Of a stretch of 63,503 bases of DNA, positions 179-11,037 are shown one piece after another. Each line of letters starts with the position of its first letter. Within the stretch, counting starts at the first letter, position 1. Below the pieces are notes generated by a model. The model was not told the DNA's origin. It ran no database searches and was given only the letters and a program-made list of their open reading frames with translations. Source of the stretch: Acidobacteriota bacterium (GTDB taxonomy: Bacteria; Acidobacteriota; UBA6911; RPQK01; JAJDTT01); assembly GCA_028874215.1 (NCBI GenBank), contig JAPPLF010000010.1, positions 1 through 63,503 of the forward strand, read 5' to 3'. Both the position numbers and the translations under genes were made by a program.

Positions 179-1948
179 GTGAAGTTATCAGGATCGAAAA
201 TGTTATGGGCGACCGTGCTGACTTTGGCCGTCTTATGCGGCGCCATGCCGTCTGTCCTGGCCCAGGACGACCGCACCACGGCCAGCGAGGTGGTGGACCG
301 GGACACCCTGAAGGCCTTTGTCCTCTCCGCGAGGGATTACATCGCGAGCATAACTGACATCAATCAGTTGGCGGCGCTCGCGGTTGAATTACGGGAAGAA
401 GGAGGGGATTGGAAAGACGGAAACATGTATTTCGTCATTCTCTTGCCGAACGGTACCGTGTGGTTTCACGGGGCCGACGTCAAATTGGATGGAACCGATG
501 TCTCGGGTGTCAAAGACGACGATGGAGTCGAGGTCGTACAAGAGATTCTCGCTGCAGGCAAAACGGAGGGCGGAGACTTTGTCGAATATACGTGGGACGA
601 TCCCTCGGACCCGGACGACACCAATCCCAAGGTTTGCTACGCCCTCGGTTACACATCCGAGTTGGCGCAAACCGAATTTATCCTGGTGGCCGGCTACTAC
701 CAGGATCTGTCCGACGTTGAGACCGACATCGGTGAACTCCCCGATCCACCGGCCCTCAACGCAGCGCACGTCGTGGACCGGGAGACCCTGAAATCGTTCG
801 TCCAAGGAGCCGTCGCGTGGACTTTCGAAAGCGTGGTCGAGCATGACTTGGGTTTGGTGAAACTGACGGAGGAATTCCGGAGAGAAGGAGGTCCATGGAG
901 ACAGGGGGCCACATACCTCTTCGTCATGACGGAACAAGGGTTCGTGCTCTTTCACGGTTCCCGACCGGACCAGCAAGGTCATATTCAGATCGAACGTGAG
1001 GACCGAAACGGATTCAAATTCGTGAAAGCCCTCATCGATGCGGCCACCTCGGGAGGAGGTTACGTCGAATATTATTGGGACGATCCGTCGGTCATGGGAG
1101 ACGAGGATCTCGGTTCCGCCAAGGTCGGCTATGCCGAGACCATTGCAGTGCCGGACGACAGTCCTGTCTACGCGGGCGAAACCCTGGTGATCGGCTCCGG
1201 ATTCTACAAGGGACACCAGATGGCTCTGGATTTTGCCCACTTTGCCAACGGGGGTTCCTTCAGCTCCGACGTGGTGCTGGTGAACCTGGCCGCCACGCCG
1301 ATCCGGCCCCTGGTCTATTTCTATGGAGAAAACGGCGAGCTCATCGATCCGGGATCGATGGTGAACGTCATGGGCAACCTGTTCCCCACCCCCTTCGGGG
1401 CTCTGACCCTCATCGCCGAGTTGCCGGCCCTGGGAGAGATCACCATTTCAACCAACGGCATGGGAGAACTCACGACCGGATCGGTCAAGGTGGTCACTGA
1501 AGGCCTCGACAGCCCCATCGGCGGGGTGCTTCGATTTGACGCACCCGGCATCGGCGTGGCGGGTGTGGGCGCCAGCCAGGCGGTCCGGGACGCCGTCATC
1601 CCGGTGCGCCGCCAGATGGGAGGCCTCGACACCGGAGCGGCCCTCCGCAACCTGAGCGAGTCGGAGCTGACGTTGACCTGCCACTTGATGATGGGCGGCG
1701 AGATGATCGAAATGCAGGAGGTCACACTGCCGGCCAACGGCCAGGACGCCATGTTCATCAGCGAGTTGTTCGAACACGACACTTCGGACTTCACCGGATC
1801 CATGCGCTGCACGGCCCCGGCGGGCGAGCAGGAATTTACCGGCGTGGCCGTGGAGCTGGATGCCATGAACGGCATCTTCACGACGCTGCCGGTGGTGCCG
1901 TTGAGCGGGCACATGATGTCTGACGAGGAGATGGCATCGGACGAATAG
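179..1948 (+). CDS. Secreted protein with two Cache-type domains and a novel C-terminal domain
   Basis: The chosen start is GTG at 179, giving 589 aa. An upstream ATG at 107 would put 24 residues before the signal peptide, whereas from 179 the protein begins with a textbook signal sequence (residues 1-28, cut before QDD), matching its two downstream paralogues; GGAG lies just upstream. Two Cache-like units follow (about 40-175 and 200-345), each with a DR-T-L-K-x-FV helix, a Y-FV/I strand, an FHG turn, an FVEY/YVEYYWDDP strand and a final G-GYY/GSGFYKG strand. From about 349 an unrecognised beta-rich domain starts at LDFAHFANGG and runs to VVPL. No transmembrane anchor, kinase or methyl-accepting domain is present, so this is not a standard receptor. 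Cache domains usually bind small molecules outside the cell. A ligand-binding or surface role is inference. The C-terminal domain has no function known to me. Confidence 0.8.
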   Translation: MKLSGSKMLWATVLTLAVLCGAMPSVLAQDDRTTASEVVDRDTLKAFVLSARDYIASITDINQLAALAVELREEGGDWKDGNMYFVILLPNGTVWFHGADVKLDGTDVSGVKDDDGVEVVQEILAAGKTEGGDFVEYTWDDPSDPDDTNPKVCYALGYTSELAQTEFILVAGYYQDLSDVETDIGELPDPPALNAAHVVDRETLKSFVQGAVAWTFESVVEHDLGLVKLTEEFRREGGPWRQGATYLFVMTEQGFVLFHGSRPDQQGHIQIEREDRNGFKFVKALIDAATSGGGYVEYYWDDPSVMGDEDLGSAKVGYAETIAVPDDSPVYAGETLVIGSGFYKGHQMALDFAHFANGGSFSSDVVLVNLAATPIRPLVYFYGENGELIDPGSMVNVMGNLFPTPFGALTLIAELPALGEITISTNGMGELTTGSVKVVTEGLDSPIGGVLRFDAPGIGVAGVGASQAVRDAVIPVRRQMGGLDTGAALRNLSESELTLTCHLMMGGEMIEMQEVTLPANGQDAMFISELFEHDTSDFTGSMRCTAPAGEQEFTGVAVELDAMNGIFTTLPVVPLSGHMMSDEEMASDE

Positions 1949-2070
1949 TCGAATGGAGGCCATAGAACGAATCCGGGCGGGCCGTATCGTCGGCCTGCCC
2001 GGATTGTCCGGTGTTGGAAACGCCGGCTTTCTTCTTCCCGGCCCCTGACTTGACCGGCGGACCGGCCGGA

Positions 2071-2102
2071 AGCCCGTGGCGATACTTGCCACGGGCTTTT
2101 GT
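2071..2102 (+). terminator. Rho-independent terminator after the first Cache gene
   Basis: AGCCCGTGGC (2071-2080) and GCCACGGGCT (2088-2097) form a perfect 10-bp stem around a 7-nt loop, followed by TTTGTTTATT. It separates the first and second Cache-domain genes, so they are probably separate transcripts. Confidence 0.85.
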
Positions 2103-2158
2103 TTATTGGATGCTTACCGCCAAAGAATCACATCTCAACGGGAAAGGAACGGATTTTC

Positions 2159-4657
2159 ATGAAGTTCTCAAGATCGATGTTGCTATGGGGATTGGTACTC
2201 AGCTTGTCCGGGATTCTCGGCGCAATGTCCCCGATTCTTGCTCAGGACGCAGAGCTGACCACGGCCAAAGATGTGGTGGAGGCGGCTCCCGACGAGACCA
2301 AGGATACACTGAAGAAGTTCGTCGAATCCGCGAGAGATCACTTTTTGACCCTTCCCATCAGCGCGCTGCTCACGCTTGGGGACACCCTGCGGGAAGAGGG
2401 CGGGGATTGGAACTACAAGTCCATGTACCTCGTTGTCCTGACCGACACGGGCTCCGTGTTTATTCACGGCGAAGATATGAGCAAGGACAACACGGACCTG
2501 ACGGAAGAGGTGGACGACAATGGGAAAATGGTCGTCCAAGAGATCAAAACGGCTTTGATTGACAATGATGAAGAGGAAATATTCGTCGAGTACACGTGGG
2601 ACGATCCGGCGGCCGACGACACGAATCCCAGGTATTGCTTTGCCATCAAGGGGGGGCATCCCGCATTGCCCGGCCGGGTGTTCATTCTGGTCGGCGGCTA
2701 TCACGTGAACGTTGCGACGAGCACGGATCCGGGAGAGGAAACCGAAGAGCTCCCTGAATTGCCGGAGGTTTCGGCCATGGACGTCCGGGATCGGGAGACC
2801 TTGAAGGCTTTCGTTCAAGGGGCGGGCGATTGGGCTATTCGGGCCCTGCCGACATTGAGCTTCGATCTGCAGAAATTGGAGGCCATCTTCAGGCTGGAAG
2901 GGGAAGGGGGTCATTGGAAGAGCGGCTCCACCTACATCTTTACGATGACGCCTGACGGCAGGGTGATTTTTCACGGGGCCCGTGAAGACCAGGAGGGCAC
3001 GATCAACATCGACCTGGAAGACCGCAACGGATTCAGATTCGTGGAGGCTCTCATCGGTGCTGCCATCGACGAGGACGCAAGCGGGTATGTCGAGTATTAC
3101 TGGGACGATCCGGGCGTCGACGGGGATGAGGCATTAGGGTCCGCCAAGGTTGGCTACGCCGAAGCCCTCACGCTACCGGACGACTTCGCGATTTTCCCTG
3201 GTGCCACTATCATCGTCGGCTCCGGTTTCTACAAGGGCAACCAGTTGGCTCTCGACTTCGCCCATTTTGCCAACGGGGGAGGCATCACCTCGGACGTGGT
3301 GGTGGTGAACGCGTCCGCCAATGCGGTCCAGCCGGACATTTACTTCTACGACACGATGGGCGGACTCATCGAGGCGGGATCAGTCGTGGACGTCATGGGG
3401 CAGGGTCTGGAGGTCACGAGCTATGGAGCTCTGACCGTCCCGACCGCAATCCCGTCGCTGGGCGAGGTCACCATCCCGACCCACGGCATGGGAGACCTGA
3501 TGACCGGGTCGGTGAAGGTGGTTTCCGACAGTACCGACAGCCCCATCGGCGGTGTTCTGCGCTTTGATCTCACCAATGTCGGCGTGGCCGGCGTCGGATC
3601 CAGCAAGGCGGTTCGGGACGCCATCTTTCCGGCGCGCCGCATGGCAGGCGGGATCAACACCGGGGCGGCGTTCCGCAACCTGAGCGAGTCGGAGCAGACG
3701 CTGACCTGCCGCCTGATGCAGGACGGTCAGGCGCTTGGCGACGATGCGATGGTCGAATTGCCGGCCAACGGACAGGACGCCAAGTTTATCCACGAACTGT
3801 TCGACCACGACACGTCCGACTTCACGGGGTCGGTCCGCTGCATGTCGCCGGAAGGGGAGCAGGAATTCACCGCCGTCGCCCTGGAGTTGGATACCAACAA
3901 CGGCGTCTTCACCACCCTGCCGGTGGTGCCGGTGGATATGGACGGATCCGGCTCCGGCAACGGACAAGCCACACTCTATTTCGCCCACTTCGCCAATGGA
4001 GGCGGCATCACCTCGGACATCGTGGTGGTGAACGCGTCCGCCACGGCGGCCCAACCGGACATCTACTTCTACAACACCATGGGTGAAATCATTGATGCGG
4101 GATCGGTGTTGGACGTCATGGGACAAGGTCTGGAGGTCACGGACAGCGGATCTCTGACCGTCCCGGACCCGATACCGCCATTGGGCGAGGTCACCATCCC
4201 GACCCACGGTATGGGAGACCTGATGACCGGTTCGGTAAAGGTGGCTTCCGACAGCACTATCGGCGGAGTCCTGCGCTTTGATCTGACCAATGTCGGAGTT
4301 GCCGGCGTGGGGTCCAGCCAGCCGGTCCAGGACGCTATCTTTCCGGCGCGCCGCATGGCAGGTGGGATCAACACCGGGGCGGCGTTCCGCAACCTGAGCG
4401 ATTCCGAACAGACGTTGACCTGCCGGCTGATGAAGGCCGGTCAGGCGCTTGGCGACGATGCAATGGTCGAATTGCCGGCCAACGGACAGGACGCCAAGTT
4501 CATCCACGAACTGTTCGACCACGACACATCCGACTTCACGGGGTCGGTCCGCTGCATGTCGCCTGCAGGGGGACAGGAATTCACTGCCGTCGCCCTGGAG
4601 CTGGATGCAAACAACCGCGTCTTCACGACGCTGCCCGTGGTCCCGGTGGCGCAGTAG
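2159..4657 (+). CDS. Secreted protein with two Cache-type domains and a tandemly duplicated novel C-terminal domain
   Basis: 832 aa from ATG 2159 (GGGAAAGG upstream); an earlier in-frame ATG at 2099 lies on the terminator T tract and would bury the signal peptide. Residues 1-28 are a signal peptide ending ILAQD, with a start almost identical to that of the gene at 179. Two Cache-like units span about 48-190 and 205-350, with FVEYTWDDP and YVEYYWDDP strands. Two copies of the novel beta-rich domain follow, about 363-592 and 604-831, each beginning FAHFANGGGITSD and ending VFTTLPVVPV. They are joined by a short DMDGSGSGNGQ linker. The copies are nearly identical, so the duplication is recent or kept homogeneous by conversion. 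Its paralogues at 179 and 4723 have one copy each. Export is well supported; biochemical function is unknown. Confidence 0.8.
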   Translation: MKFSRSMLLWGLVLSLSGILGAMSPILAQDAELTTAKDVVEAAPDETKDTLKKFVESARDHFLTLPISALLTLGDTLREEGGDWNYKSMYLVVLTDTGSVFIHGEDMSKDNTDLTEEVDDNGKMVVQEIKTALIDNDEEEIFVEYTWDDPAADDTNPRYCFAIKGGHPALPGRVFILVGGYHVNVATSTDPGEETEELPELPEVSAMDVRDRETLKAFVQGAGDWAIRALPTLSFDLQKLEAIFRLEGEGGHWKSGSTYIFTMTPDGRVIFHGAREDQEGTINIDLEDRNGFRFVEALIGAAIDEDASGYVEYYWDDPGVDGDEALGSAKVGYAEALTLPDDFAIFPGATIIVGSGFYKGNQLALDFAHFANGGGITSDVVVVNASANAVQPDIYFYDTMGGLIEAGSVVDVMGQGLEVTSYGALTVPTAIPSLGEVTIPTHGMGDLMTGSVKVVSDSTDSPIGGVLRFDLTNVGVAGVGSSKAVRDAIFPARRMAGGINTGAAFRNLSESEQTLTCRLMQDGQALGDDAMVELPANGQDAKFIHELFDHDTSDFTGSVRCMSPEGEQEFTAVALELDTNNGVFTTLPVVPVDMDGSGSGNGQATLYFAHFANGGGITSDIVVVNASATAAQPDIYFYNTMGEIIDAGSVLDVMGQGLEVTDSGSLTVPDPIPPLGEVTIPTHGMGDLMTGSVKVASDSTIGGVLRFDLTNVGVAGVGSSQPVQDAIFPARRMAGGINTGAAFRNLSDSEQTLTCRLMKAGQALGDDAMVELPANGQDAKFIHELFDHDTSDFTGSVRCMSPAGGQEFTAVALELDANNRVFTTLPVVPVAQ
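3247..4650 (+). repeat. Direct repeat of about 690 bp inside the second Cache gene
   Basis: Two consecutive in-frame copies, roughly 3247-3942 and 3970-4650, encode the same domain with few substitutions. Long stretches such as those encoding GVLRFDLTNVGVAGVGSS and FIHELFDHDTSDFTGSVRCM are unchanged at protein level. The second copy lacks a short DSP-type segment (SDSTIGG against SDSTDSPIGG). The junction is a Gly/Ser-rich linker. Confidence 0.85.
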
Positions 4658-4722
4658 AGAGTTACACCGCAGGAATGAATTCAGTGAGAGCCTCCGCTGG
4701 TCAGAGTAAAGGAGCACCCACT

Positions 4723-5982
4723 ATGAAACTTCCTAAATCGCTGCTTCTCATGGGGGTCCTGGCTTCGGCGGTCGTCTTATCCGCGCTGCAGCCCGCCCTC
4801 GCCCAGGGCAACGGGATCGCGGCCAGAGAGGTCCTGGACCGGGAGACGCTGAAGGCCTTCGTTCAGACGGCAAAGGCATACGTCGAAGGCATCACCGATG
4901 CCGCCCAGATCGAGGATCTATTGAACGAGCAATGGAGGTTCGGCTCCGTCTACGTCTACCTTTCGAATGACGAGGGCGTCATCCGCTGGCACGGGGCCAA
5001 TGCGGCCCTGGTGGACCAGGATCTCAGCGGCGTGGTAGACGCGCTCACCGGGGCCCCGTACGTCCAGGAACTCATCGCCGCAGCCCGATCGGGAGGAGGC
5101 TACGTCGAATATCATTTCGACGATCCGTCGATTGAAGGAGATGAAGACCATACTTCCCCCAAATTGGGATACGTCGAGCCTTTTACTTCTCCCATTGCGG
5201 ACCTCTTTCCGGAACAGGACATGGTCATTGGCTCCGGCATCTATCTCGGACATCAGGTCGCGCTGGACTTCGCCCATTTCGGCAATGGATCCGCAATCAG
5301 TTCCGACATCGTGTTGGTGAACCTGGCCGCCACGCCGATCCGGCCTACGGTCTACTTCTACGACGAGATGGGCGAACTCATCGATCCGGCGTCCGTGGTG
5401 GATATCGGGGGGAATTTGACAGCCACGGATTACGGGGCGGTTACGCTCCAGTCCGAACTGGCACCCTTGGGCGAAGTCACGATCTCGACCAACGGTCAGG
5501 GCGAGACCGTGACCGGATCGGTGAAAGTGATCTCCGACGGTCCCCACAGCCCCATCGGCGGAGTCCTGCGATTTGATGTTCCCGGCGTCGGCGTGGCCGG
5601 GGTCGGAGCCAGCCAGGCGGTCCGCAACGCCATCTTCCCGGCCCGGCGCCAGGCTGGAGGCATCGACACCGGTGCGGCGCTCCGCAATCTGAGCGAGAAG
5701 GAGCTGACGTTGACCTGCAGCCTGATGATGGGCGGCGAGGCGATGGAAGAGGCGGAAATCAGCTTGGCGGCCAACGGCCAGGATGCCATGTTCATCAGCG
5801 AGTTGTTTGAAACCGACACCTCGAACTTCACGGGATCGGTGCGCTGCATGGCGCCGGGAATCGCTCAGAAGTTCACCGGAGTCGCGGTTGAATTGGATGG
5901 CGTGAACGGCATCTTCACCACGCTGCCGGTGATTCCTCTGCAGGGCGGGATGCCCGCCATGGAGGAAATGGCGTCCGAATAG
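4723..5982 (+). CDS. Secreted protein with one Cache-type domain and the novel C-terminal domain
   Basis: 419 aa from ATG 4723, with AAAGGAG at the right distance upstream. A signal peptide occupies residues 1-27 (ending PALAQG). One Cache-like unit lies at about 33-175: DRETLKAFV helix, YVYLS strand, WHGA turn, YVEYHFDDPS strand, GSGIYLG strand. The novel domain starts at LDFAHFGNG (about 180) and runs to LPVIPL. It is the minimal form of the architecture shared with the genes at 179 and 2159. The 65-bp gap to the previous gene holds no evident terminator, so the two could be co-transcribed. Ligand and role are unknown; the family resemblance to Cache domains is by motif pattern only. Confidence 0.8.
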   Translation: MKLPKSLLLMGVLASAVVLSALQPALAQGNGIAAREVLDRETLKAFVQTAKAYVEGITDAAQIEDLLNEQWRFGSVYVYLSNDEGVIRWHGANAALVDQDLSGVVDALTGAPYVQELIAAARSGGGYVEYHFDDPSIEGDEDHTSPKLGYVEPFTSPIADLFPEQDMVIGSGIYLGHQVALDFAHFGNGSAISSDIVLVNLAATPIRPTVYFYDEMGELIDPASVVDIGGNLTATDYGAVTLQSELAPLGEVTISTNGQGETVTGSVKVISDGPHSPIGGVLRFDVPGVGVAGVGASQAVRNAIFPARRQAGGIDTGAALRNLSEKELTLTCSLMMGGEAMEEAEISLAANGQDAMFISELFETDTSNFTGSVRCMAPGIAQKFTGVAVELDGVNGIFTTLPVIPLQGGMPAMEEMASE

Positions 5983-6115: not shown

Positions 6116-6220
6116 TCACTTCAAAAACGCGTAGGAGACTCCCAGGGTCAGATAGAGGCATCCCATAAATAGGATGCCGGCCCACCGGACCTTGCCGTAG
6201 CGGTACTTGAACGGAAGGAA
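6116..6220 (-). pseudogene. Relic: last 35 codons of a second Nramp-like transporter gene
   Basis: On the minus strand this segment reads, in one frame without interruption to a TGA at 6116-6118, FLPFKYRYGK followed by a WAGILFMGCLYL helix and GVSYAFLK. It matches the C-terminus of the intact Nramp-like transporter at 11205-12581 (YLPAEYRYGK ... MGCLYLVLGVSYAFLK) almost residue for residue, including the downstream palindrome. Similarity stops at about 6220, where the leader and start of the nuclease gene take over. No transposon end is visible at the junction. It is a remnant of a lost paralogue or of a partial duplication. It also appears to supply the GGAAGGA sequence that serves as ribosome-binding site for the next gene. 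Confidence 0.8.
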
Positions 6221-6230
6221 TATTTCCCTT

Positions 6231-7505
6231 GTGAATCCATTTCGCTTCATTCACACCGCAGACGTTCATCTGGACAGTCCCTTGAAGGGGCTTGCCAGAC
6301 ATGAAGGTTCCGCGGCCGACTCCATTCGCACCGCCACCCGGACAGCTTTGCATCAATTGGTCGGACTCGCCATCGAAGAGCAGGTCTCCTTCCTGATCAT
6401 CGCCGGCGACCTCTATGACGGCGACTGGCGAGACTACCGGACGGGCCTGTACTTCGTCAGCGAGATGGGCCGCCTCCATAGGTCCGGCATTCCCGTCTAT
6501 CTACTCTACGGCAATCATGACGCCAGGAGTCAGATCACGCGCCGCCTCACCCTGCCCGGGAATGTGCACGTTTTCGGATCGCGAAGACCACAGTCCATTG
6601 CGATTGACAGCCTGAACGTCGTCCTTCACGGACAGAGCTTCAGGCAACGGGATGTCACGGACAATCTGGCGCTGAATTATCCGGAACCATTCCCGGGCGC
6701 CTTCAACATCGGCGTCCTGCATACGGGACTCGGGGGTGCCAGCGGCCATGAGAACTACGCGCCGTGTGCACTCGCCGACCTTATCGGCAAGGGCTACGAC
6801 TACTGGGCGCTGGGGCATGTTCACCGTGCGGAAGTACTTCATTCCCGGCCCCATATCGTGTTTCCCGGGAACTTGCAGGGACGGCACGTGCGGGAGACCG
6901 GCGCCAAGGGCGCCACCATGGTCACGATCGACAACGGCGAAATCTCAGATCTTGAAACCTTGCCTTGTGATGTCGTGCGTTGGACCGTCGTGACGGTCGA
7001 CTTGGGGTCTGCGACAAGCTTCGGCGAGGTCTTGGATCGAATTCGGGATGCCCTTGATGATGCCGTCGACACTTGCTCCGGAGGTCGTCTTCTGGCGTGC
7101 CGCATCGTGCTCCAAGGCCGTACCGAAGTCCATGGCCGACTTCTGACGGACGAGGAGCAACTCCTCGCCGAGGCGCGCTCCGTCGCGCTGGGCCTCGGGG
7201 ATGACGCGGCCTGGGTGGAAAAGGTGATCGTGGAGACCGAACCGGCGATCGCCCCGGAAATCCTGGAGCGGCGGGAGGATGCCGTCGGCGAACTGCTCCG
7301 GATGCTGCAGGAGGCGGGGTCCGATACCGACCTGCTGCGCCGGCTGGAGACCGACATCGGTGGGATGGTCCGTCGGCTACCGTCGGAGGTGCGGTCCGCA
7401 GTGGAGGATACGGTGCTGAAGGCCGCGGTCGACGGCGACCACGCGGCGTTGATCGGCGGAGTGGCGCCGTTTCTGTCCGCACGGCTGACGGAAGGACGAG
7501 ACTGA
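6231..7505 (+). CDS. yhaO: YhaO/SbcD-like DNA repair exonuclease (metallophosphoesterase)
   Basis: 424 aa from GTG 6231, preceded by GGAAGGA at 6213-6219; a TTG at 6207 lies inside the transporter relic and is less likely. Calcineurin-like phosphoesterase motifs appear in order: HTADVHLDS (8-16), IIAGDLYDG (57-64), YGNHD (93-97), LHTG and ALGHVH (about 190). These supply the two-metal site of Mre11/SbcD-type nucleases. The C-terminal part is acidic and helical, as in YhaO proteins that bind a partner ATPase. The stop is one base before the start of the YhaN-like ATPase, so the two are translated together and probably form a nuclease-ATPase complex acting on DNA ends. The family call is strong; substrate choice in this organism is inference. 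Confidence 0.85.
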   Translation: MNPFRFIHTADVHLDSPLKGLARHEGSAADSIRTATRTALHQLVGLAIEEQVSFLIIAGDLYDGDWRDYRTGLYFVSEMGRLHRSGIPVYLLYGNHDARSQITRRLTLPGNVHVFGSRRPQSIAIDSLNVVLHGQSFRQRDVTDNLALNYPEPFPGAFNIGVLHTGLGGASGHENYAPCALADLIGKGYDYWALGHVHRAEVLHSRPHIVFPGNLQGRHVRETGAKGATMVTIDNGEISDLETLPCDVVRWTVVTVDLGSATSFGEVLDRIRDALDDAVDTCSGGRLLACRIVLQGRTEVHGRLLTDEEQLLAEARSVALGLGDDAAWVEKVIVETEPAIAPEILERREDAVGELLRMLQEAGSDTDLLRRLETDIGGMVRRLPSEVRSAVEDTVLKAAVDGDHAALIGGVAPFLSARLTEGRD

Positions 7506-7506
7506 A

Positions 7507-10500
7507 ATGCGTTTCGGACGGCTTGACCTGCTCCGTTACGGGCACTTCACGGACCGTTCCTTCGGGTTTCCGGCCAGCGAGGTCGATTTCCACGTGGTGT
7601 TCGGTCTCAACGAGGCCGGAAAATCCACCGCGCTCTCGGCCATCGAGGACCTCCTGTTCGGCATCCCCGTGAGAACCCCCTACAATTTTTTGCACGACTA
7701 CGGGAGCCTGCGGATCGGCGCCGTCCTGGAAAACGAACAGGCGTTGCTGCAGGTGGTTCGCCGCAAGGGCAGGAAGGATACGCTGCTCGGGACCGACCAG
7801 CTTCCGCTGCCGGGCGGCGAGACCGCGTTGCGACCCTTTCTGGCGGGCGCCGATCGTCCTTTCTTCGAGCGGATGTTCAGTCTCGACCACGTTCGGCTCG
7901 AAACCGGCGGTCGCGAGATTCTGGAAGCCAAGGACGATGTCGGGCAGGTGCTGTTCTCAGCTGGCGCCGGGCTTACAGGCCTGCGAGATCTGCTGGACGA
8001 GCTTTCCCACGAGGCCGACGGACTCTGGGCGCCGAGAAGGGCGAGACGCAGAAAGTTCTATCGGGCTCTTGACAGGTTGAGGGACGCCGGAACGGAGCTG
8101 CGGCAACGGACGGTCACGGCCCACAAGTGGCATGAGTTGAAACAGGCGTTCGAGCGCGCCGAAGAGGCCTACGCCGGAATCGAGTCCGAGTTCGAGAATC
8201 TTTCCGCCGAAGTTCGCCGGCTCAGTCGCATCCGGCGCGTCTATCGCGAGGTCTGCCGCATGGTCGACCTGGAAGAGGAAAAGGATATTGCGGCGTTGGA
8301 AAAGGTCGTCCTGCTGCCCGAAGACGCTCGACGGGTCCTGGAGGAATCGGAGCGAAGGGACAGCGAGTTGACCACCCGGATCGAGACTCTCTCCGGTCGC
8401 CTGGCCCAAGCGCGGGAGGAGTTGAGCACTCTCAAATACGATGAACGGCTGATCCTTCGCGACCCGGACATCACCCATCTCCATGAACGCCGGATCGAGG
8501 TCCGCCGCGGGAAGGATGACCTTCCGAAGCGGCAGGCGGAGCTCGCCGCGGCGGAAGTCGAGCTGCGGGACCTGGCCGCCGAGTTGGGCTGGAAAGAGGA
8601 AGTCGGCAAGTTGATCTCACGCATACCGGCGCGGACCAAGCTGGGGGTCCTGCGGTCCCTCCTGAGCCAGCGAGGCAAGCTGGCCTCGGACCGGGAGAAC
8701 CGGGACGAGAACGTGCAGGAGGCGCAAGCCGAACACGAAGAGATTCGACAGACCATCGAGGTCATGGGCGAGACCTTCGATGTCTCTCGGTTGAGATCGG
8801 TCATCAGGGCGATCCGGGAGAGCGGCGACATCACCGGGCGCGTACGCCGGGCGGAGTTGGACGTCAAGCACACGCAGGATCGCCTGGATCGACTGCTCTC
8901 CGCCTTGCACCCGGCTGTCCCGAGTCCGGAAACCGCCAGGGAGATGCGCGTGCCCCCGGCGGCCACCGTGCAGGCGCATCGGGACAAGCTGCAGAGCTGG
9001 GAGCGGCGCAACCGCGAGGCGGTCCGCCAACTTGCCCGCGCCAAAAAGGAACTTCATCGAGCTCGCAAAAAATTCCGGAGCGCCATGCAAGAGGAACAGA
9101 TCGTCTCCTTGGAGACCCTCCGGGAGGCCAGAGACGATCGGGACGCTCTCTGGAGATTGGCCAAGAAAAGGCACATCGACAATCTGCGGGTGACCGCCGA
9201 GGAGGCGGGGCGCTACGCGCACGCGCTCGATGACCTGGCGACGGCCGTGGCAACCGCGATACGCAACGCGGACGACTTGGCGGACCGACGATTCGACAAC
9301 GCCGAAGCGGCCGGACGCTTAGCGGAGATGTCCCGCACCATCGAGGAGCAGGAGTCCGGCGTGTCTCAGCTCACCCAACTCCGGGAGGAGCTCGTTCAGG
9401 AAGGCGAGCGTCTGCACGCCGATTGGGAGACCTTGTGGAGCCGGGCGCCATTTTTGCCGTTGCCTCCCGACGCCATGCTGGAGTGGATGAAGACGCGAAA
9501 TGATCTGCTGGAAGCGGTCGACGACCGGGCCAGGGCGGCCCGCACGCTGGAGGTCCACTGCGAAGAGCTGCGAGAGGCCAGAGCGGAGCTCCTGGCCGAA
9601 TTCTCGTCACTCGGCGCCGACCCCGGCTTGTTGGAGCAGCAGACCCTTCCGATGTTGCTGGAGCGTGCGGACGGAATACGTTTGGATCATGAGCAGGAGG
9701 CGGACACCAAGAGTCGATTCGAGGACCGCCTGCAGGAAGCGAAGTCCACCCTGGAGCGTCGCCGCCGCGAGTTGGCCCGGGCGGAGCAGGCGTGGGTCCG
9801 GTGGCGGAAGGAGTGGTCGGCCGCCCTGACCGATGTCGGGCTCGCCACGGGCTCGAATCCCGATTCGGTGTCCGCTCTGATCGACGTCATGGACCGGATA
9901 CGAGAGAAGTCCCTGCGGATCAACGACCTGCGCCATCAACGCATCGGAAAGATCCGGCGAGACGTGGCCGACTTCGAGGCCCTCGTCGAGAAGATGGTCC
10001 ATGAGGTGGCGGGAGACCTCTCCGATACACCCGCCGAGGACGCCGTTTTGGAGATCGAGGACCGCTTGGCCGACGCTCGGCGCACACGTGACCTTCGGGC
10101 CAGGAAGGAGCAGGAGACAAGAGATCTGGAGAACAACCTCCGCGTCCTGGTGGAGGACCGCGAAGCGGCACGTGGGTCGGTCAACTATCTCAGGGACGCG
10201 GCCGGCGTGGGGACCAGTGGGGAGCTGAGCAACGCCATTGAGAAATCCGAATCCCTGCGGGCGCTGCACCTCGAGCTGGCTACGATCCGGAAAGCACTGG
10301 AGCAGCAAGGGGATGGTCTGACGGCGGCGGAGTTGGAAGAAGAGTGCGAAAACGTGGATCTGGACCAGGTCGTGGCCCAGGAAGACACGACCCAGGCCAG
10401 ACTGAGGCGATTGCGGGACCGGTTGGCCGCCGCTGCCGAGCAGCGAGCTCAGGCTCGAAGCGCTTTCCAGGCGGTCGGCGGCGACGCGGCGGCGGCCCGA

Positions 10501-11037
10501 GCCGAAGCGGCGCGTCAGGAGGCTCTCGTGGACCTCGGCCAGATCTCCGAGCGCTATATCCGCGTTCAGACCTCGGTCCTCTTGCTGCGGTGGGCCATCG
10601 ACCGCTATAGGCGCGAAAAACAGGCTCCTCTGCTCAGGCGCGCCGGCCAGCTCTTCGCGACCGTCACCGGGGGCTCGTTCACCGAGCTTCGGGTCGACTA
10701 CGACACCAGGGATCAGGCTCATCTGATCGGAACGAGGCCCGATGGTGAGGTCGTTCCCGTGCCAGGCATGAGCAGGGGAACCGCAGACCAGCTTTACTTC
10801 GCTCTGCGCATCGCTTCCATCGAAGACTATCTCGGTCATGCCCCGGCCCTGCCCTTCGTTGCCGACGATCTGTTCGTCAACTTCGACGATGACCGGGCGC
10901 GAGCCGGCTTCCAGGTGCTGGGAGAACTGGCCGGGAAGACCCAGGTGCTCTTCTTCACCCACCATCGGCACCTCCTGGAAATTGCACGGGAGACGTTGGG
11001 CGGCTCAGTTTCCGATGTGGACCTGACCCGGCGCTGA
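7507..11037 (+). CDS. yhaN: YhaN/SbcC-like AAA (ABC-type) ATPase with long coiled coils
   Basis: 1176 aa, starting one base after the nuclease stop. The N-terminus holds the Walker A motif GLNEAGKST (33-41) followed by LLFG and FLHDYGSLRIGA, typical of YhaN. Residues about 200-1000 are charged, heptad-rich coiled coil. The C-terminal half-site has the signature MSRGTADQLYFALRIA (about 1086), Walker B LPFVADDLFVNFDDDRA (about 1113) and an H-loop FFTHHRH. This is the split head, long arm design of SMC/Rad50/SbcC proteins. With the upstream phosphoesterase it should form an ATP-gated nuclease for DNA break processing. It lacks an obvious CxxC zinc hook in the arm, as expected for YhaN rather than SbcC. 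Confidence 0.88.
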   Translation: MRFGRLDLLRYGHFTDRSFGFPASEVDFHVVFGLNEAGKSTALSAIEDLLFGIPVRTPYNFLHDYGSLRIGAVLENEQALLQVVRRKGRKDTLLGTDQLPLPGGETALRPFLAGADRPFFERMFSLDHVRLETGGREILEAKDDVGQVLFSAGAGLTGLRDLLDELSHEADGLWAPRRARRRKFYRALDRLRDAGTELRQRTVTAHKWHELKQAFERAEEAYAGIESEFENLSAEVRRLSRIRRVYREVCRMVDLEEEKDIAALEKVVLLPEDARRVLEESERRDSELTTRIETLSGRLAQAREELSTLKYDERLILRDPDITHLHERRIEVRRGKDDLPKRQAELAAAEVELRDLAAELGWKEEVGKLISRIPARTKLGVLRSLLSQRGKLASDRENRDENVQEAQAEHEEIRQTIEVMGETFDVSRLRSVIRAIRESGDITGRVRRAELDVKHTQDRLDRLLSALHPAVPSPETAREMRVPPAATVQAHRDKLQSWERRNREAVRQLARAKKELHRARKKFRSAMQEEQIVSLETLREARDDRDALWRLAKKRHIDNLRVTAEEAGRYAHALDDLATAVATAIRNADDLADRRFDNAEAAGRLAEMSRTIEEQESGVSQLTQLREELVQEGERLHADWETLWSRAPFLPLPPDAMLEWMKTRNDLLEAVDDRARAARTLEVHCEELREARAELLAEFSSLGADPGLLEQQTLPMLLERADGIRLDHEQEADTKSRFEDRLQEAKSTLERRRRELARAEQAWVRWRKEWSAALTDVGLATGSNPDSVSALIDVMDRIREKSLRINDLRHQRIGKIRRDVADFEALVEKMVHEVAGDLSDTPAEDAVLEIEDRLADARRTRDLRARKEQETRDLENNLRVLVEDREAARGSVNYLRDAAGVGTSGELSNAIEKSESLRALHLELATIRKALEQQGDGLTAAELEEECENVDLDQVVAQEDTTQARLRRLRDRLAAAAEQRAQARSAFQAVGGDAAAARAEAARQEALVDLGQISERYIRVQTSVLLLRWAIDRYRREKQAPLLRRAGQLFATVTGGSFTELRVDYDTRDQAHLIGTRPDGEVVPVPGMSRGTADQLYFALRIASIEDYLGHAPALPFVADDLFVNFDDDRARAGFQVLGELAGKTQVLFFTHHRHLLEIARETLGGSVSDVDLTRR

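Follow-up and report, generated by a model that had tools for sequence, protein, structure and literature searches.

Three adjacent genes lie at the left end of the window (the whole 63,503-nucleotide stretch of DNA analysed here), which is contig 10 of a 5.7-Mb, 113-contig acidobacterial genome (Table 1). They were located where a sequence-only reading had placed them, and that reading's count of N-terminal plus C-terminal units per protein (2+1, 2+2, and 1+1) was correct, as was the modular assembly that it proposed on this basis. Gene 1 starts with the GTG at 179, and the ATG at 200 is an alternative start. A hydropathy scan detected a single hydrophobic stretch in each of the three proteins, the N-terminal signal peptide, which ends in PSVLA/Q, SPILA/Q, and QPALA/Q in genes 1, 2, and 3, respectively (the slash marks the cleavage site); these Ala-Gln junctions resemble signal peptidase I sites. 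Beyond the signal peptide, none of the trio proteins had a 19-residue window with a Kyte-Doolittle value above 1.33 or any later membrane-like segment, none of the three carried a lipobox, and Pfam detected no output signalling domain in them. The proposal that they are exported and have no membrane or signalling part therefore held. Genes 2 and 3 are spaced 65 bp apart, and the hairpin that stands between genes 1 and 2 has a folding energy of -27.4 kcal/mol (z -5.7).

Table 1. Features of the three-gene locus in window positions; ASRAH-like dyads and their lobes are predicted.
Feature	Position	Strand	Remarks
Gene 1 (P0001, 589 aa)	179..1948	+	Signal peptide, two Cache domains, one ASRAH-like dyad
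Gene 1 signal peptide (VKLSGSKMLWATVLTLAVLCGAMPSVLA/Q)	179..262	+	Hydropathy scan; cleavage site by eye
Cache unit 1a (sCache_2), Y/H/Y/K carboxylate tetrad present	275..712	+	
Cache unit 1b (sCache_2), tetrad present	755..1219	+	
ASRAH-like dyad, gene 1	1220..1900	+	
Hairpin resembling an intrinsic terminator, gap between genes 1 and 2	2067..2101	+	16 pairs, then T-rich tail
Gene 2 (P0002, 832 aa)	2159..4657	+	Signal peptide, two Cache domains, two ASRAH-like dyads
Cache unit 2a, tetrad with R replacing K	2258..2707	+	
Cache unit 2b, tetrad present	2768..3244	+	
ASRAH-like dyad, gene 2, copy 1	3245..3931	+	
ASRAH-like dyad, gene 2, copy 2	3968..4645	+	87.6% identity to copy 1
Gene 3 (P0003, 419 aa)	4723..5982	+	Signal peptide, one Cache domain, one ASRAH-like dyad
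Cache unit 3 (gene 3), tetrad present, modelled	4816..5256	+	
ASRAH-like dyad, gene 3, lobe 1	5260..5628	+	
ASRAH-like dyad, gene 3, lobe 2	5629..5937	+	1NC7 match

The N-terminal units had been recognised as Cache domains, and this identification was confirmed by family profiles, by profile matches in the PDB, and by a confident structural model. Pfam dCache_2/sCache_2 (PF08269/PF17200) matched all three proteins above the curated cut-offs, with best whole-protein E values of 4e-25, 6e-18, and 6e-10, and the convincing matches of an 18-unit Cache profile in the PDB were to Cache sensors only (4EXO/2QHK, 4K08, 5G4Y, and TlpB). The model of mature P0003 (pLDDT 89.6, pTM 0.86) has the long N-terminal helix and the antiparallel sheet of the Cache fold, and its first 150 residues were aligned with 2QHK, 4EXO, 4K08, and 5G4Y at Z scores of 14.8, 14.3, 14.0, and 13.5, respectively. 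In the sensor PscD, the carboxylate ligand is contacted by Y90, H103, Y143, and K156 (PMC5062169). When these positions were mapped through the profile alignment, equivalents of all four were found in four of the five units (1a, 1b, 2b, and 3), and unit 2a has an R at the position of K156. As judged from these residues, the ligand of the Cache units is likely a small carboxylate. The positions of the packing residues W92 and F126 are variable across the Cache units of the window, and for this reason the ligand may differ from that of PscD. Lactate or pyruvate is the ligand of the sCache_2 domains that have been characterised in gut bacteria (PMC12415202).

The trio thus shares its fold and its Tyr/His/Tyr/Lys site with the sCache_2/dCache_2 sensors PscD (5G4Y/5G4Z), Adeh_3718 (4K08), and the V. 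parahaemolyticus MCP (4EXO) but differs from these sensors in having neither flanking membrane helices nor a signalling domain and in being fused to a beta-sandwich module. In a Cache receptor, the Cache domain is flanked by membrane helices and coupled to an output domain for signalling, and the signal passes through the membrane helix (PMC4822843). Because their hydrophobic part is the signal peptide only and an output domain is absent, the trio proteins carry a Cache domain but do not qualify as Cache receptors.

The C-terminal domain had been described as a unit of about 220 aa that could not be placed in any family. It is indeed unnamed: the copies in the window had no match in Pfam or NCBIfam, 33 close copies had no meaningful match in either, and a sequence comparison with the PDB returned nothing at an E value of 1. 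The length was also nearly right, at about 227 aa, but the domain is internally duplicated, with two lobes of approximately 110 aa each, and structural comparison did place it, as a predicted ASRAH-like (TM1070/ASRT-fold) dyad. Alignments of the module were made from copies in its own genome and copies across the phylum (sets of 33 close copies and of 117). A model of the module (pLDDT 84.7, pTM 0.62) contained two consecutive beta-sandwiches. Foldseek gave nothing at an E value of 0.001 or below with this model; the Thermotoga protein TM1070 (1NC7) was picked up by its Foldseek probability of 1.00 and then by VIA-align, in which lobe 2 was superimposed on it over 103 residues with a Z score of 13.5 and an rmsd of 2.1, compared to a Z score of 6.2 for the next match. 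When lobe 2 was taken from the full-length P0003 model, the Z score was 13.7. The two lobes were homologous to each other by hhalign (probability 96%, E value 1e-9, score 53 versus a shuffled maximum of 20). The corresponding comparison with ASRT gave moderate values for lobe 2 (score 29.9, shuffled maximum 16.0, probability 63%) and a score of 23.3 for lobe 1 (shuffled maximum 15.3, probability 18%). The TM1070-type eight-stranded beta-sandwich is therefore assigned to lobe 2 directly by structure and to lobe 1 via its homology to lobe 2 only.

The ASRAH superfamily, for which TM1070 (1NC7) provides the reference structure, has been predicted to bind small molecules, probably sugars; TM1070 is tetrameric, and exported ASRAH domains occur as dyads or tetrads (PMC2739507). 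The module has in common with ASRAH proteins (ASRT, PF07100; TM1070, 1NC7; Anabaena ASRT, 2II7) the beta-sandwich, the Asn of strand 2, and the dyad or tetrad organisation, and two of the three ASRAH families are exported, as are the proteins in which the module is found. The Asn that ends strand 2 was invariant at N22 and present at N144 in at least 90% of the 33 close copies, and N21 was present in at least 90% of the 117 copies. Compared to ASRT, the module has no strand-1 Trp, inspection of the alignment showed that the H and C of the ASRT SHExxCxxN signature are absent, and it is joined to dozens of unrelated exported proteins. Since lobe 1 opens with a conserved Phe (F4, in at least 90% of the 117 copies) in place of the strand-1 Trp, we refer to the module as ASRAH-like rather than assigning it to ASRAH. 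PF07100 was weakly matched by 2 of the 117 phylum copies, and DUF5719 (PF18986), which probably corresponds to the actinobacterial ASRAH dyad, was weakly matched by 15 of them with a best E value of 1.8e-5, but neither family was matched by the copies in the window; among the control genomes, PF07100 was matched in Thermotoga maritima alone. Scattered matches of the module to Invasin_D3, Big_1, FlgD_ig, and others were dismissed as generic beta-sandwich noise. As modelled and aligned here, the C-terminal domain is an ASRAH-like dyad that is related to the named families but belongs to none of them and is doubled in many proteins, 42 of the 77 sampled having two modules of two lobes each.

A survey of its contexts showed that this domain is not peculiar to Cache proteins; it is an extracellular module that combines with many partners and is present dozens of times in a genome. 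Its own genome contained 60 matches at an E value of 1e-3 or below, and it was detected in 24 of the 199 genomes of the phylum, many with at least 10 copies, numbers well beyond a chance occurrence. Besides Cache domains, its partners were LRR, fn3, trypsin-like, GmrSD_C, and BACON domains and beta-propeller repeats, as well as RTX repeats, Peptidase_M10, LDL-receptor-B repeats, and M60-like peptidase. The last copy ended no more than 20 aa from the stop in 65 of 77 sampled proteins; in at least 12 proteins of its own genome, the module is N-terminal, directly following the signal peptide and preceding hundreds of further residues. A lipobox was looked for in the 61 sampled module proteins that had a clear hydrophobic N-terminal segment and was found in none. 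Because its partners are so varied and some copies are N-terminal, the module is an extracellular building block, neither an accessory of Cache domains nor a strictly C-terminal signal.

Divergent relatives of the module were also seen. At loci L149 to L158 of the same genome, divergent tandem ASRAH-like modules are located N-terminally in large exported proteins (850 to 2100 aa) whose further domains are LRR, M60-like peptidase, LDL-receptor-B repeat, and M66/reprolysin-like or DUF3472. At L160 (1080-2792), a divergent ASRAH-like module is followed by YWTD-type repeats that by eye are LDL-receptor-B-like. In another genome of the phylum (G125), two loci with long ORFs (L131 and L132) contain several weak ASRT-like repeats with WYFAEGST... 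motifs and may represent an ASRAH family of bridging character.

Of 18 genomes from the order, only those of the window's genus, all four of them, had fusions of Cache domains to the module. The order of the three genes is kept in relatives, and gene 1 is broken in one of them, in which its counterpart is cut to a 208-aa ORF that begins inside the C-terminal module (L046, 4608-5231). The 17 sampled Cache-linked modules form one clade with a FastTree support of 0.995, which suggests that the fusion probably arose once and multiplied afterwards. Within gene 2, the C-terminal copies share 87.6% identity, compared to 63 to 74% for other pairs, and are therefore probably the result of a recent duplication. 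The genome of the window had 13 sCache_2 matches, and those that were inspected belonged either to module-bearing proteins or to module-free exported proteins with two Cache domains, none of which had signalling parts. The MCP signalling domain was matched in none of the four genus genomes, an absence that is provisional because these are incomplete MAGs. Downstream of the trio are genes for a calcineurin-like metallophosphoesterase (6207-7505) and an AAA_27 protein of 1176 aa (7507-11037), and both also follow the trio in L045 and L046, the two relatives that were compared. These genes look unrelated to the trio and by analogy may be an SbcD/SbcC-like pair. The module-free double-Cache proteins, of approximately 360 to 420 aa, are encoded on contigs C100 and C70 of the same genome (L147, 3130-4401 and 4295-5431; L148, 2211-3293), and similar matches in three other genus genomes make them a second set of detached Cache proteins.

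The reading that we prefer, and hold with middling confidence, is that the trio proteins are exported binders of small carboxylates and that their ASRAH-like modules keep them on the cell surface or in the matrix. The anatomy on which it is built (signal peptide, Cache fold, carboxylate site, dyads, and neither membrane nor output parts) is well supported; that retention occurs via glycan or polymer binding by the modules and that the Cache ligand is a small carboxylate are steps that we infer. A Sec-type signal peptide takes each protein across the inner membrane, and outside the cytoplasm the Cache domains would then bind C2-C3 acids, for example acetate, glycolate, propionate, pyruvate, or lactate. 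Since the membrane helix and output domain are absent, the proteins would act by ligand capture or presentation and not by the usual signalling. The ASRAH-like dyads or tetrads would tether the protein to a glycan or polymer of the cell surface or surrounding matrix and might also assemble the proteins there. Retention is favoured because unrelated exported proteins with no other visible anchor have the module in common. Against this reading, the module does not keep the His and Cys pocket residues of ASRT, its profile link to ASRT is moderate, sugar binding by ASRAH proteins is itself predicted, the W92 and F126 positions of the Cache pocket vary, and the sequence is equally compatible with free diffusion.

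Proteins that diffuse freely would be scavengers or buffers of carboxylates in the periplasm or medium, possibly passing their ligand to an uptake system, with the ASRAH-like part serving as a second soluble site or as an oligomeriser. We consider this rather doubtful. A type I signal peptide with no lipobox and no membrane anchor is what such proteins would have, the tetrameric state of TM1070 and the dyads or tetrads of exported ASRAH domains (PMC2739507) agree with an oligomeriser, and the module-free exported double-Cache proteins are present in the same genome. However, the LRR, fn3, and peptidase proteins that also carry the module have no common substrate, so that a shared location fits better than a shared ligand, and the genes conserved after the trio in two relatives encode a metallophosphoesterase and an AAA_27 protein and no uptake system. 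The way in which the module is used thus favours surface retention over a free state. It is very unlikely that the trio proteins are soluble co-receptors whose ligand-loaded Cache domain docks on a separate membrane sensor, like some periplasmic binding proteins: Cache is a sensory fold, its ligand residues are kept, and the gene order is conserved across the genus, but the four genus genomes gave no match to the MCP signalling domain and no sensor gene was seen beside the trio, although a partner such as a histidine kinase might be encoded elsewhere. A further reading is that the module chiefly directs secretion or sorting, in the manner of the T9SS C-terminal domain, and that it is cut off once export is complete or is inert from then on. 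This would explain its frequent place near the stop and its presence in unrelated exported proteins, but we regard it as highly improbable and rejected it as a main idea, given that the module exceeds 200 aa and is often doubled, that divergent copies were found at the N terminus, and that T9SS tail models touched only 2 of 117 copies at an E value of approximately 0.01 (a search of the genome for SprA_N gave no match either, but it carries no weight because its controls were silent as well).

As far as we have searched, the Cache and ASRAH-like ingredients are known, and what is new is their fusion, the loss of the receptor setting, and the extent to which the module has expanded; in the open-access literature, we found no paper on secreted Cache proteins in Acidobacteria, on the fusion, or on the expansion. 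Intact pockets on exported proteins that have no membrane helix would mean that the Cache fold can work simply as a binding protein as well. The module represents a large unnamed ASRT-related family that some of the Acidobacteriota carry, in up to approximately 60 copies per genome. Exported LRR, fn3, and peptidase proteins, of a kind that studies of sponge symbiosis often discuss, appear to be commonly built with it. A name for the family would give many proteins an annotation and open their mechanism of attachment to testing. A broader idea, which is speculative and on balance unlikely, is that the genus moved sCache_2 from membrane receptors to secreted, polymer-anchored proteins, so that a host-associated bacterium would have an extracellular carboxylate-capture layer built of the ASRAH-like modules on which its LRR and fn3 proteins are also displayed. 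It was suggested by the lack of any match to a chemoreceptor signalling domain and by the export of the inspected sCache_2 proteins of this genome without signalling parts. The names of relatives' MAGs ('jk18x1bz' and 'COS4') are compatible with studies of Ircinia and Coscinoderma, which is only a lead to a sponge origin. All of the named relatives are acidobacterial MAGs except for one record labelled Candidatus Aminicenantes (L048, JAPOYZ010000012.1), and this label is probably wrong because its Cache-module gene matches that of G205, a genome of the same genus as the window.
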